Shown here one piece after another: positions 22,187-27,761 of a DNA stretch of 64,000 nt. Each line of letters begins with the position of its first letter. Position 1 is the first letter of the stretch. The notes under the pieces were generated by a model. The model had not been told where the DNA came from. It made no database searches and saw only the letters and a program-made list of their open reading frames with translations. The position numbers were made by a program, and so were the translations under genes. The DNA is from an uncultured Shewanella sp. (GTDB lineage: Bacteria; Pseudomonadota; Gammaproteobacteria; Enterobacterales; Shewanellaceae): positions 32,246 through 96,245 of the forward strand of contig NZ_CANMUW010000015.1 in NCBI RefSeq assembly GCF_947501225.1, in the 5' to 3' direction.

Positions 22187-22939
22187 TTAGGAGTTAGGTA
22201 ATTTATAACTGAAGTATTTGCGGTTCTCGGAGCCCGCAGCATTAGCGCTGATCTTATTGGGATGTTTATATTCATCCCAACTGGCCACATTTCTGCCCCT
22301 GTTCAGATGCGGAAAGCTCAGATGTGGAAAGTTCAGGTGCGAAATATCCGAGTCACAGGTGTCTGGGTCGCACTCTAAGAAGTTAAGCAACTCAGCTAAG
22401 CTTCCCGGTTCACTGATATCGATACTCAAAAGATCGTCTCGGTCTCTGAAGTAATCTAAAACCTGTTCTTTATGAGCAAGATAACACTTAATAAGATGCT
22501 CACTATCCATGACATCATCCACCCTGTTGACCCCAAAGCTGCAATTAAAACTACGCTTCATAATCGCGTTAAACCGCCCGGTCTTATCATCGAGATGCAC
22601 CAACATGCGACTCAATAACATCTGCATCGATGGCACCCAGGTGTCGAGTGCACGATCCAGATAGACAAACTTAGCGCCGGGAAACAGCTTATCCAGCTGC
22701 CTGTAATCGCTGAAACAGGGGGCATCGGATATTACATCCGCCAACTCGAATGAATGCTTGGTAAAGGCTTGATGCGCCACCCTGTATCCCTGTTCAAGCA
22801 GGGCCACACTCACACTGGTCGTCCCGGTACGAGGCAGGCCTATGATGAAGATCTTGGTCGCTCCACCTTCTTCAGGTAAAAGTCTGTTTTTGGCGTTAAT
22901 TTTAGTTGACGAGTTTGATGCCACCGGGATTGATGTCAT
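22187..22939 (-). CDS. Sulfotransferase family protein
   Basis: The 250-aa product has the PAPS-binding P-loop of sulfotransferases (KIFIIGLPRTGTTSVSVALLEQG split as KIFIIGLPRTGTTS and VSVALLEQG, around residues 29-50) and a downstream FPGAKFVYLDRALDTWVPSM block that resembles the second nucleotide-binding segment. It has no signal peptide or membrane helix, so it should act in the cytoplasm on an unknown acceptor. The C-terminal part contains a short repeat-like run (LNFPHLSFPHLN). It ends eight bases before hrpB. Confidence 0.75.
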   Translation of the reverse strand: MTSIPVASNSSTKINAKNRLLPEEGGATKIFIIGLPRTGTTSVSVALLEQGYRVAHQAFTKHSFELADVISDAPCFSDYRQLDKLFPGAKFVYLDRALDTWVPSMQMLLSRMLVHLDDKTGRFNAIMKRSFNCSFGVNRVDDVMDSEHLIKCYLAHKEQVLDYFRDRDDLLSIDISEPGSLAELLNFLECDPDTCDSDISHLNFPHLSFPHLNRGRNVASWDEYKHPNKISANAAGSENRKYFSYKLPNS

Positions 22940-23686: not shown

Positions 23687-23721
23687 ATGTGACTCATAGT
23701 CCGTAGACTCATAATCAACAT
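23687..23721 (+). promoter_or_regulatory. C-box operator of a restriction-type controller protein
   Basis: GACTCATAGTC (23691-23701), a CGTA spacer and GACTCATAATC (23706-23716) form two tandem palindromic half-operators flanked by ATGT and AACAT. From memory this matches about 28 of 35 bases of the C.Esp1396I left/right operator used in structural work. It lies 37 bases before the controller gene, as expected for autoregulation of a C-R promoter. Confidence 0.85.
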
Positions 23722-23758
23722 ACAAAGATGATCTTGAAAAACATTCAAAGGATTCTTC

Positions 23759-23986
23759 ATGGATGATCAATTGCTGGCAGCATTCGGTGCTCATATAAAA
23801 AAGTTACGTTTATCTAACTCTCTATCTCAAGAGCAGCTTGCTCTAAGAGCTGATATAGATAGAACTTATATCAGTGGAATTGAACGAGGAAAGAGAAACG
23901 TTAGTGTCATCAATTTATTCAAAATTGCGGATGCATTGAATATTCCAGCATCAACACTTTTAGATTTTAAAGCTGATAATAAATGA
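23759..23986 (+). CDS. Controller (C) protein, XRE-type helix-turn-helix
   Basis: The 75-aa protein is almost entirely one XRE helix-turn-helix domain: FGAHIKKLRLSNSLSQEQLA then RADIDRTYISGIERGKRN. This size and the RTYISGIERGKRN recognition-helix block are typical of the C proteins that delay and balance restriction-enzyme expression in type II R-M systems. An AAAGGATT ribosome-binding site precedes the ATG, and a C-box lies immediately upstream, so positive autoregulation is expected. Its stop overlaps the start of the next gene (ATGA at 23983-23986), so both are translationally coupled. The region is AT-rich compared with its surroundings, a sign of transfer. Confidence 0.9.
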   Translation: MDDQLLAAFGAHIKKLRLSNSLSQEQLALRADIDRTYISGIERGKRNVSVINLFKIADALNIPASTLLDFKADNK

Positions 23987-25941
23987 TGACTCAACAAGCC
24001 TTTTATTCAGCCACTTTTAAAGAGTTCTTAACTGAAGATTCATCTGCAATTTTTGGCAAAATTTCAAAACGCCATACTCAGCAATTACAGTATTTACAAA
24101 CAAAAGCATGGCTATCAGAAATAGAGTTGCTTAAAGACTTATTGTACGAGCATAACATTCTTCAAGGACACATATTTTTCGAATTTATGATCCCAAGAAT
24201 GGGGCGTAGAGCTGATGCAGTTATAATCCTAAAAGGGCTCATCTTCGTTATTGAATTTAAGATCGGCAAAGCGGATATAAATCATTGCGATATGAGACAA
24301 GCACACGGATATGCTTTGGATTTGAAGAATTTTCACAGCGCTAGTCATAATAAGTTAATTGTTCCAATACTCGTTGCAACCAAATCTAGAAGCCACTTTT
24401 CCTCAGTAAATTTTTCAGATGATGGCGTTGCTGAAACTGTATGTATAAATGAACAAGATCTGATTAAAAGAATTTATCAGATCGCAACAAAATATAATCA
24501 ATCAAACTTTAATGCCCAGCATTGGGCTGAATCTGGCTATCTACCAACACCAACAATTATTGAGGCGGCTCAAGCCCTCTATGCACACCATAAAGTCACA
24601 GATATTGCGCGTAGTGAAGCTGACTCACAGAATCTTGGACAAACAAGCCATCAATTACTGCAACTCATTCATAAAGCACGCTCAGAAAAAAGAAAGGTAA
24701 TTTGTTTTGTTACTGGTGTACCTGGTGCAGGAAAAACATTGGTAGGTTTGAATATTGCCAGCTCTCACTCGAGTCCAAAAGAAGAGGAGTATTCGGTTTT
24801 CTTAAGTGGTAATGGCCCTTTAGTTTCTGTATTGCAAGAAGCATTAGCAAAAGATAGAAATATTCGTACCAATGAAGGCTTAGGAAAGTGTAGGAGACAC
24901 ACAGAACAATTCATTCAAAATGTTCATAAATTTAGAGATGATTCACTTAAAGGTAATAAACCACCTGAGCAGGTGGCAATTTTTGACGAAGCACAACGAG
25001 CCTGGAATGCTGAACAAACAAGTAAATTCATGCAAACCAAGCGCAATCAAGTTGGGTTTAATAAGTCAGAGCCTGAATACCTTATTGAAGTAATGGATCG
25101 TCACGAAGACTGGGCGGTTATTGTGGCTCTTATAGGTGGAGGGCAAGAAATTAACACTGGGGAAATAGGCTTATCTGGTTGGCTAAAAGCTTTAGAAAGT
25201 AAGTTCTCTCACTGGGATACGTATTACTCAACAGATTTACTAAACGGGGAATACGTTTCTTCCGGATTAGACTCTAAAAAATTATCCAATGCTAACCTCA
25301 TGCCTTGTCTTCATCTAGCAACATCCATGCGTTCATTCAGAGCAGAAAAGCTATCTAGCTACATCCATCATCTAATAGAAGGGAACAGTGAGTTAGCGAA
25401 GCGATTGTATGAAACCTTTAAACACCTATACCCTATAAAAATAACAAGAAATTTAGAAGACGCAAAAAGATGGATAAAACTCAAATCTAGAGCAAATGAA
25501 AGCAAAGGAATGTTAGCCTCCTCCAACGGTATTCGTTTAAAAGCAGAAGGCATATTTGTAAAGAACAAGATTGAACCTAAAGATTGGTTCTTAGGAGCTC
25601 CTGAAGATATTCGCTCTTCACACTTTTTAGAAGATGTAGCAACTGAATTTGACATCCAAGGATTAGAAATAGATTGGGGATTAATTGCTTGGGATGCTGA
25701 TTACCGATTTGGTGCTGATAAATTTGAGCACTGGAGGTTTAGAGGAACAAAATGGGAACAGCGGAAAAAAACCGAAAACCAAAGGTACCTAGAGAATGCT
25801 TACCGTGTATTAATGACACGCTCCCGGCAAGGCATGATCATTTTTGTCCCCAAAGGTAATGATGATGATACAACTAGAAAAGTTGAATTTTACGATAACA
25901 CTTATGAATATTTGAAAAGATGCGGCATTGAAACAATTTAA
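23983..25941 (+). CDS. PD-(D/E)XK nuclease fused to an SF1-like helicase (DUF2075 type)
   Basis: The 652-aa protein has two visible parts. Residues 60-120 hold a PD-(D/E)XK nuclease core: D78 in RRADAVIIL, E91-x-K93 in VIEFKIG and Q106 in RQAHGYALDL. Residues about 238-620 form a superfamily-1 helicase/DUF2075 domain: Walker A GVPGAGKT (245-252), Walker B IFDEAQ (333-338), ALIGGGQE (382-389), motif V QGLEID (559-564) and motif VI RVLMTRSRQG (608-617). It overlaps the C-protein gene by four bases and takes the place normally held by the restriction enzyme, but no methyltransferase is nearby. A defence role against phage or plasmids is inferred, not shown. Confidence 0.85.
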   Translation: MMTQQAFYSATFKEFLTEDSSAIFGKISKRHTQQLQYLQTKAWLSEIELLKDLLYEHNILQGHIFFEFMIPRMGRRADAVIILKGLIFVIEFKIGKADINHCDMRQAHGYALDLKNFHSASHNKLIVPILVATKSRSHFSSVNFSDDGVAETVCINEQDLIKRIYQIATKYNQSNFNAQHWAESGYLPTPTIIEAAQALYAHHKVTDIARSEADSQNLGQTSHQLLQLIHKARSEKRKVICFVTGVPGAGKTLVGLNIASSHSSPKEEEYSVFLSGNGPLVSVLQEALAKDRNIRTNEGLGKCRRHTEQFIQNVHKFRDDSLKGNKPPEQVAIFDEAQRAWNAEQTSKFMQTKRNQVGFNKSEPEYLIEVMDRHEDWAVIVALIGGGQEINTGEIGLSGWLKALESKFSHWDTYYSTDLLNGEYVSSGLDSKKLSNANLMPCLHLATSMRSFRAEKLSSYIHHLIEGNSELAKRLYETFKHLYPIKITRNLEDAKRWIKLKSRANESKGMLASSNGIRLKAEGIFVKNKIEPKDWFLGAPEDIRSSHFLEDVATEFDIQGLEIDWGLIAWDADYRFGADKFEHWRFRGTKWEQRKKTENQRYLENAYRVLMTRSRQGMIIFVPKGNDDDTTRKVEFYDNTYEYLKRCGIETI

Positions 25942-25987
25942 TAGATAGTTCTAAAATCGAAGAAACAATCTGCTTTTTAGATAAAAG

Positions 25988-26077
25988 GTGTAGGTAGGCA
26001 AGAGGGTCTCGAAAACAAGGATGTTTTCGCGAAGCGCCCACGGAAGGGTCCACAGCGTCCCGAGAGCTTACCTACAC
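25988..26077. repeat. 90-bp palindromic element
   Basis: The element is bounded by a perfect 9-bp inverted repeat (GTGTAGGTA at 25988-25996, TACCTACAC at 26069-26077). Inside are a second pairing (GTCTCG with CGAGAG) and a 6-bp hairpin GAAAAC...GTTTTC. It could be a REP/MITE-like unit or a structured RNA. It starts 46 bases after the nuclease-helicase gene. Confidence 0.65.
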
Positions 26078-26193
26078 ATAAGCCTGCTGCAAGCAATTAA
26101 CATCAATGAAGCCAAGGTTCCCATAAACTAACCAAACAATACAAAAGTCCAAAGCTAAACCAAGTTACTTGCTAAGCTTGTTAACCCACAAGC

Positions 26194-27116: not shown

Positions 27117-27761
27117 ATGATGATCGATCTCGCTATACTTCCTCTCTATTTAACCACTGTCATGGCTCTTTTGCTGATCCCAGGCCCGGATATGTTACTA
27201 ATTGCCAGCTCAAGTTTAAGTTACGGACGTAAGGTCGGTATCTTCGCCAGCTTAGGGAATGCGACATCGGGGATACTCTTAACCCTGTTGGCGGCGATGG
27301 GAGTATCGGCGCTGATAGCCATGAATCCGATGGCGCTGCAACTGCTGCGCTTGTTAGGCGGCGCCTACCTGTTGAAGATGGGATGGGATTGTATGCGAGC
27401 CGGACCGGTCGATGCACCAGAGGTCGCGCAAGATAATCACCTGGCCAAGACCCTCTATCGCCGCGCGGTATTCAGTAACCTGCTCAACCCAAAGGCTCTG
27501 CTCTTCTTTGTACTGTTTCTGCCTCAATTTGTCTCCGCCCAGCTCACGGCGACATCGGGTGAACAGATGCTGGCATTAGGGCTACTGCTTAATGTGATGG
27601 GACTAACCTTTAACCTGTTGCTGGTGGCCATGGTTGGCACTCTGGGTAAACCACTGTTGAAAAATGAGAAGTTCAGGACTAATCAGAATAAGTTTATGGG
27701 TGTCATCTTCTTTGCATTAGCTATCTGGTTATTGGCATCTCAGGTTCAAACCATGAGCTAA
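27117..27761 (+). CDS. LysE/RhtB-family amino-acid exporter
   Basis: The 214-aa inner-membrane protein shows the LysE family layout: an N-terminal helix ending in LLIPGPDMLLIASSSLSYGRKVG split as LLIPGPDMLLIASS and SLSYGRKVG, the LRLLGGAYLLKMGW block, and FSNLLNPKALLFFVLFLPQF, with five to six membrane segments. Such proteins export amino acids or their derivatives by proton antiport; the substrate cannot be inferred. Two adjacent ATG codons (27117, 27120) are possible starts. A GC-rich hairpin without a T tract (27778-27800) follows. Confidence 0.9.
   Translation: MMIDLAILPLYLTTVMALLLIPGPDMLLIASSSLSYGRKVGIFASLGNATSGILLTLLAAMGVSALIAMNPMALQLLRLLGGAYLLKMGWDCMRAGPVDAPEVAQDNHLAKTLYRRAVFSNLLNPKALLFFVLFLPQFVSAQLTATSGEQMLALGLLLNVMGLTFNLLLVAMVGTLGKPLLKNEKFRTNQNKFMGVIFFALAIWLLASQVQTMS

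Follow-up and report, generated by a model that had tools for sequence, protein, structure and literature searches.

The window analyzed here is a 64-kb chromosomal stretch from an uncultured Shewanella sp. (contig NZ_CANMUW010000015.1, positions 32,246 to 96,245), and it lies near the replication origin, with dnaA, mnmE, mnmG, and parA/parB recognized by eye. Within it, a controller (C) gene of the type found in restriction-modification (R-M) systems, preceded by a C-box operator, overlaps a large open reading frame (ORF), here called ORF2, that encodes a nuclease-helicase. The locus is real and well conserved; its enzyme family is a known one, and its control is unusual. The usual rationale for C proteins is that a toxic endonuclease must be held back until methylase action makes the host safe. 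In this locus, an R-M-type regulator and operator appear to control an enzyme whose cognate methylase, if there is one, did not turn up in the families searched, so that the means by which host DNA escapes attack becomes a testable question. The features of the locus are as follows, with positions counted along the window and amino acids abbreviated as aa.

23691..23716, + strand: C-box operator, inverted repeats GACT-N3-AGTC and GACT-N3-AATC with CGTA between them, 42 bp before the C gene
23704..23732, + strand: putative weak promoter, inferred from sequence, with -35-like TAGACT (23704-23709) and -10-like GATGAT (23727-23732) at a spacing of 17 bp
23759..23986, + strand: controller (C) gene for a 75-aa XRE-family protein, an ORF with profile and solved-chain matches
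23983..25941, + strand: ORF2, a 652-aa nuclease-helicase of PADLOC family PDC-S41, whose start overlaps the C stop codon (ATGA)
23983..24687, + strand: predicted N-terminal PD-(D/E)XK, RecB/Cas4-like nuclease domain of ORF2, about aa 1-235, with E67, R72, R76, D78, E91-x-K93, and Q106-x3-Y110
24694..25851, + strand: predicted superfamily 1 (SF1) helicase domain of ORF2, aa 238-623, with Walker A GVPGAGKT (K251), Walker B DEAQ (335-338), Q388, R450, QGLE (559-562), and R613/R615

The controller, its operator, and the nuclease-helicase

Judged by its profile and solved-chain matches, the XRE-family protein is a genuine R-M controller protein. It matched Pfam HTH_3 (E = 1.7e-17) and the PADLOC Control_protein model (E = 7e-24), and its nearest solved chains were C.BclI (E = 8.9e-16), followed by C.AhdI (E = 1.1e-14). 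The C-box consensus, GACT-N3-AGTC-N4-GACT-N3-AGTC, was recovered with one mismatch at 23691-23716, the sole match with three or fewer mismatches in the 64 kb; at the same threshold, shuffled windows contained a mean of 0.10 matches, and 9 of 100 shuffles had at least one. The PADLOC models, the solved chains, and the C-box search all bear out what a preliminary description, made from the sequence alone, had reported: a restriction controller gene, its C-box, and an overlapping large gene.

Across 19 gammaproteobacterial loci (a comparison that takes in the window and one duplicate, and in which the C start of L031 is uncertain), the C-box stands 41 to 55 bp upstream of the assigned C start with 1 to 3 mismatches, or 5 in L032. 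The two promoter hexamers of the window each match at 4/6 positions, and the corresponding hexamers of the other genus loci match at 4/6 and 3-4/6; in the window and the genus loci alike, the weak -35-like hexamer overlaps the right half of the C-box. This layout fits the activate-then-repress circuit of C proteins described in PMC12707154 and PMC3874152; regulation of this kind is proposed here.

Relatives of the C protein occur in 609 plasmid records (tblastn). All four that were opened, among 15 listed for the 609 records, are C-R-M-like loci, with the C relative directly 5' of, or overlapping, a restriction-enzyme or hypothetical gene and a DNA methyltransferase gene alongside. The operator half TGTGACTYATAGTCCGTRGAC is also present in four viral contigs (L148, L149, L150, and L151). 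In L148 and L150, it is followed by a C gene, an overlapping gene of 390 aa, and a convergent C5-methylase-like gene (by eye); L151 stops after the C gene behind TGTGACTYATAGTCCGTRGAC, and L149 has no C gene behind it. The locus thus shares with C-regulated type II R-M systems of the AhdI, BclI, and PvuII type a C protein of the R-M controller family, a C-box upstream of the C gene, a C gene overlapping the effector gene, and an operator half that also occurs in C-R-M loci. It differs from them in that the effector is a nuclease-helicase and in that no cognate methylase was found in the families searched.

ORF2 matched the PADLOC model of PDC-S41 end to end (PDLC05014, E = 1.1e-275, aa 4 to 651 on model positions 2 to 652 of 657). 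On this match, its family is already known as a predicted single-gene defense candidate, the S in the label marking one-gene candidates, and the earlier proposal of a new defense family falls away; the difference from PDC-S41 as listed lies in the C protein and C-box upstream of ORF2. Residues 238 to 623 matched Pfam PF09848, SLFN-g3_helicase (E = 7.6e-77), the former DUF2075.

Genome contigs contain at least 572 stretches that encode an ORF2 relative, of which the best 80 were kept, so that the sample leans to near relatives. Residue counts and the tree are based on 101 aligned rows, namely, the window and 100 of 117 loci (L061 and L109 are identical, so that 100 rows differ); left out were duplicates (L001, L029, and L033), split genes (L014, L015, L024, and L025), and distant or partial sequences (L026, L028, and L110 to L117). 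The nuclease residues E67, R72, R76, D78, E91, K93, Q106, and Y110 are identical in 101/101 rows. The same holds for helicase residues K251, T252, D335, E336, Q338, Q388, R450, Q559, G560, E562, R608, R613, and R615, which include the Walker A and Walker B motif residues. When two more distant relatives were included (a 55-row alignment), E67, D78, E91, and K93 remained invariant, and Q106 and Y110 were conserved at 90% or more.

An AlphaFold2 model of ORF2 (mean predicted local distance difference test score, 88.4; predicted template modeling score, 0.84) places the elements of aa 37 to 132 in the alpha-beta-beta-beta-alpha-beta order expected for a PD-(D/E)XK core, and the conserved D...E-x-K triad lies on this predicted core. 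The Q-x3-Y motif, together with a weak Cas4_II match (aa 75 to 154, E = 0.0029), points to the RecB/Cas4 branch of these nucleases. From its motifs and profile matches, ORF2 is accordingly described as a predicted PD-(D/E)XK nuclease of RecB/Cas4 type fused to an SF1 Schlafen-group-3 helicase, in agreement with the nuclease (D78, E91-x-K93, and Q106) and SF1/DUF2075 helicase assigned in the preliminary description; the invariant E67 and Y110 are additional to the residues given there. The nuclease domain had no solved relative by sequence profile, and a Pfam scan of ORF2 revealed no base-recognition domain besides the nuclease and helicase. The best PDB matches of ORF2 by sequence were potassium-channel chains (E = 0.005 to 0.01), which we judged to be due to chance.

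Because the helicase falls in the Schlafen group-3 Pfam family, an RNA-targeting, Schlafen-like effector has to be considered, in which the helicase would sense infection and the nuclease would cut tRNA or mRNA; SLFN11 also appeared in the PDB search, at E = 2.5. The N-terminal PD-(D/E)XK motifs with Q-x3-Y, however, typify DNA nucleases rather than the Schlafen RNase core, and we regard an RNA target as highly improbable.

Distribution of the enzyme and its optional controller

The third-position GC content of ORF2 is 0.297, the lowest among the 42 window ORFs that reach 150 aa (median, 0.493), and its distribution is patchy. Counting the window's own genome, ORF2 was found in 14 of 129 genomes of the genus, with a C gene in 14/14, and in 10 of 369 genomes of the class. 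Of 398 genomes in the phylum sample, 21 had a match to PDC-S41 at 1e-3; the match was strong (E < 1e-100) in 12 and weak or partial in 9. A blastn search against E. coli genomes gave no match. Phyla are intermixed on the 101-row tree, which includes a single-cell thaumarchaeote genome, and this mixing indicates horizontal transfer. The low third-position GC content and the patchy distribution sustain the earlier view of ORF2 as AT rich and acquired.

The C gene did not hold up as a constant part of the system. A C-like upstream gene accompanies ORF2 in 21 of the 101 rows and another helix-turn-helix (HTH) gene in 3, and no upstream HTH gene was found in 77 with a profile made from C-like seeds, which could miss other partners. 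Going by these upstream genes, the C gene is an optional part of the PDC-S41 family. The C label changes at least twice on the tree, as forced by the well-supported branches of a gammaproteobacterial clade and a Flavobacterium clade, although gain and loss are not separable on this quick tree with SH-aLRT support only. The upstream regions of the Flavobacterium loci have a common TCCGT center, and their C proteins diverge in the stretch after DRTY; such differences in operator and C protein suit a separate recruitment of C. The Flavobacterium-type operator had no match in viral contigs.

Two verrucomicrobial loci that sit beside the gammaproteobacterial clade on the tree have a different upstream HTH gene (L102:9775-10008 and L107:9775-10011), which is preceded by repeated TGTTCT...AGAACA-like motifs and perhaps encodes an independent regulator. 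No second partner gene recurred in more than 4 of 79 loci when 692 neighboring ORFs were clustered; the largest cluster, from 12 loci, consisted of HTH genes that were not in every case the upstream partner, and one four-locus cluster reflected Flavobacterium synteny. One genus member (L014/L015) and one class member (L024/L025) have ORF2 broken into two ORFs that overlap.

The position of the XRE gene, which precedes and overlaps the gene for a potentially toxic nuclease, would also suit a toxin-antitoxin-like pair, with the XRE protein neutralizing or silencing a self-toxic ORF2. HipA and Fic genes in the vicinity agree with this, as does an NCBIfam Y4mF-type antitoxin match of the XRE protein (E = 5.3e-11), albeit one below the model cut-off. 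On the other hand, the nearest PADLOC and solved matches of the protein are C proteins, the operator is a C-box, and the 77 rows in which the C-like-seed profile found no such partner argue against a constant cognate antitoxin, so that a pair of this kind appears very improbable to us.

Neighboring genes and the search for a methylase

The pair occupies a variable site, whose border genes are the following.

22187..22939, - strand: left border gene, sulfotransferase-like by eye, which adjoins differing inserts in other genus members
27117..27761, + strand: right border gene, a LysE/RhtB-type transporter by eye, from flank comparison across genus members

The same site was surveyed in genomes picked for widely separated flanks, plus one short case (L118 to L126), as an illustration and not as a rate. 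It held a type IV-like restriction enzyme in L118 (E = 3.9e-211); a DUF2357/PDDEXK_7 protein, a PDC-M26A-like protein, and a C5 methylase in L120; an MvaI/BcnI-type enzyme, a C5 methylase, and HipA in L122; an HTH-Fic pair in L123; and an HNH enzyme in L126. No defense gene was seen by eye in L124 and L125, whose ORFs were not scanned. Of the 13 other genus members with a match, 11 (all but G098 and G121) provided extended flanks around the pair itself. A SoFic-like Fic relative lay near the pair in 7 of these 11 genomes and HipA relatives in at least 3 (L128, L131, and L136), along with one PDC-S01, one PD-T4-3, an integrase in L127, and a relative of it in L128; L132 and L137 had no Fic, HipA, PDC-S01, PD-T4-3, or integrase gene near the pair.

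The preliminary description had seen no modification gene in the window, and this was upheld; nor was a cognate methyltransferase found elsewhere in the genome (completeness, 100; 76 contigs), for which PF00145, PF01555, PF02384, and PF02086 were the methylase families searched. PF00145 and PF01555 gave no match, with controls matching in 10 of 14 and 11 of 14 genomes, respectively. PF02384 and PF02086 each matched once, on other contigs; the neighbors of the PF02384 match were read by eye as HsdS and HsdR (a type I locus), and the PF02086 match is a Dam-like gene. To look for linked methylases across the family, 1165 ORFs from 91 loci (one genome twice, as L029 and L135; many flanks short) were put through a crude motif screen, which will miss some methylases. 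Twelve ORFs passed, 10 of which were scanned (not L091, which is a family member itself, nor L043:2177-4459), and 3 of these 10 are DNA methylases (L045, L076, and L092). Most PDC-S41 members therefore have no C gene and, in the loci screened, mostly no linked methylase, which makes the protection of host DNA a family-wide question. The earlier statement that protection must come from something else is thus sound for the family as a whole, but not as a peculiarity of this locus.

The resident Dam-like gene and type I-like locus would leave room for an enzyme whose action depends on modification, either a type IV-like one that cuts modified foreign DNA or one that is blocked by the methylation of the resident Dam or type I methylase. 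The type IV-like enzyme found at the same site in a relative is in line with such a role, as is a 28%-identical relative that adjoins McrC-family and methylase genes. Against it stand the ORF2 architecture, with no base-recognition domain seen beyond the nuclease and helicase, and the count of only 3 of 91 loci with a DNA methylase in the crude screen, and we think a dependence on modification distinctly unlikely.

Proposed function and mechanism

We consider it fairly probable that the locus is a horizontally acquired two-gene defense module, in which a methylation-independent, structure-sensing nuclease-helicase of the PDC-S41 family has come under a recruited R-M timer. The gene order, the operator, the regulator and enzyme families, the intact catalytic motifs, the lack of a genomic match to PF00145 and PF01555 (the two main type II methylase families), the patchy distribution, and the restriction and toxin genes that some genus members carry at the site are direct observations, to which we add an antiphage role, a DNA target, activation and repression by C, and a timing function as proposals. 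Most likely, the SF1 motor would load on an abnormal DNA structure, such as a single-strand/double-strand junction, a gap, or protein-coated single-stranded DNA from a phage or another invader in the course of replication; the DNA opened by the helicase would be cut by the RecB/Cas4-type nuclease. The cell's own DNA would be spared through the choice of substrate and not through methylation. At low levels, C protein would bind the left half of the C-box and activate its own weak promoter; at high levels, the right half over the -35 region would also be filled, leading to repression. The nuclease-helicase would thus be late and dose capped when the module enters a new cell. A structure-sensing mechanism needs no methylase and so would fit the majority of the PDC-S41 family. 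If the gammaproteobacterial clade nonetheless needs a C timer, its enzyme is perhaps more toxic, or the element perhaps enters as single-stranded DNA open to its own enzyme.

Known defense systems offer partial parallels. Hachiman (HamAB), a nuclease plus a helicase that senses DNA damage, resembles ORF2 in this pairing of activities. Hachiman consists of two proteins and is not known to have a C protein, unlike the window locus. The single-gene system Nhi and AbiO resemble ORF2 in carrying a nuclease and a helicase in one protein, and by this analogy ORF2 most plausibly works as Nhi does, with the helicase finding and opening abnormal DNA and the nuclease cutting it; Nhi activity depends on the phage single-stranded DNA-binding protein (PMC12904381). 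ORF2 differs from both in that its profile matches to them are weak and partial (Nhi, E = 0.0055; AbiO, E = 0.0075). Membership in Nhi was rejected, the match covering aa 232 to 355 only. No Nhi relatives were found in the 299 genomes searched, and there was no match in the controls either. PF09848 is counted among Abi-type Pfam families in PMC10121019.

Several points weigh against the defense module. The PDC label of PDC-S41 is itself a prediction, and no phage phenotype was found for the ORF2 family in the open-access literature searched. None of the papers in that literature names PDC-S41, although reports may exist in subscription papers or bioRxiv preprints. Nothing there links DUF2075 with phage defense, the papers that mention the domain being, by title, not on defense; likewise, nothing in the titles, abstract openings, and passages available pairs a C protein or C-box with a helicase. 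The promoter hexamers are weak, and a consensus promoter scan, which returned 6 sites versus 8.1 in shuffles, gave no sigma-70-like site at the C-box promoter. The upstream regions in Flavobacterium fit the canonical C-box poorly (7 to 8 mismatches), and the C ORF is cut to 54 aa in L016:1275-1439 and L033:9775-9939, which apparently represent the same genome; a C-box with 2 mismatches still precedes this shortened ORF. An N6/N4 methylase lies near the gene in L045, and a C5 methylase lies near the nuclease-helicase in L076 (7953-9575) and L092 (4067-5674), two sister Clostridia, so that linkage to a methylase may hold for one small clade. Finally, a defense-island test compared the nearest with the farthest genes in 95 flanks from 79 loci (flanks had to be at least 9.5 kb long with 4 or more ORFs). 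The nearest genes matched 56 PADLOC models at 1e-10 and the farthest 48, a difference too small to rely on, and the neighboring Pfam families were mostly housekeeping in both sets (best 25 of 114 and best 25 of 132). Among the 25 PADLOC models listed per set, which were not assigned to individual proteins, about 9 of the nearest versus 2 to 3 of the farthest were defense types, with mad2 and RtcR set aside. Defense-gene enrichment around the wider family is therefore weak, and the co-occurrence with defense genes that had been anticipated was seen in the window's genus and only faintly beyond it.

The housekeeping neighbors, as far as listed, also speak for a mobile RecB- or Dna2-like enzyme of DNA repair or recombination, with the C protein limiting its dose and no defense role; the combination of a RecB-type nuclease and an SF1 helicase would suit repair well. 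What makes such an enzyme unlikely, in our view, is the patchy occurrence in 14 of 129 genus and 10 of 369 class genomes, the mixing of phyla on the tree, and the restriction and toxin genes that selected genus members carry at this site. C-type timers, moreover, are known from restriction systems (PMC12707154 and PMC3874152).

We also offer, with considerable reserve, an extension of the defense module that we would not expect to hold in full. Under it, the C-box circuit was lifted from R-M systems, apparently twice, onto a methylation-independent, structure-sensing nuclease-helicase, and the delay would give an incoming element time to convert to double-stranded form and establish itself before making its own nuclease, which would attack the single-stranded or replicating entry form. 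A resident copy could also switch on an arriving C-controlled R-M system too early and thereby keep it out, which is conceivable because the operator is common to real R-M systems. A comparison of C-plus and C-minus members of this one enzyme family would show what a C timer does with nothing to methylate. The locus also provides an experimental entry to a widespread defense candidate, with its 572 or more relative-encoding stretches, for which we found no experimental paper in the open-access literature.

A few minor features of the wider family and of the window may be added. In two genomes of another family, with similar gene order, the N-terminal nuclease domain stands alone (L142:2836-3372 and L143:2842-3411; 178 and 189 aa) and has lost the E-x-K residues in the tblastn alignment, which suggests an inactive nuclease domain put to another use. 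Directly after ORF2 lies a dispersed repeat (25965-26130) with 12-nt inverted arms (25988-25999 and 26066-26077), which has 12 matches in the window's genome, counting this copy, and many more across the genus and is possibly a small mobile or repetitive extragenic palindromic-like element. A MazG-like NTP pyrophosphohydrolase gene adjoins a distant SLFN-g3 nuclease-helicase in 3 of 4 loci opened (L145:1952-4194 and L147:2053-4905, both by PF12643, and L146:237-3081, by eye) and was not seen in L144. These proteins share with ORF2 an SLFN-g3 helicase and an N-terminal nuclease-like region and differ from it in the MazG-like neighbor and, in the 796-aa protein of L147, in a C-terminal S24 (LexA/UmuD-type) peptidase domain (PF00717, E = 1.4e-6), a possible sensor of DNA damage.

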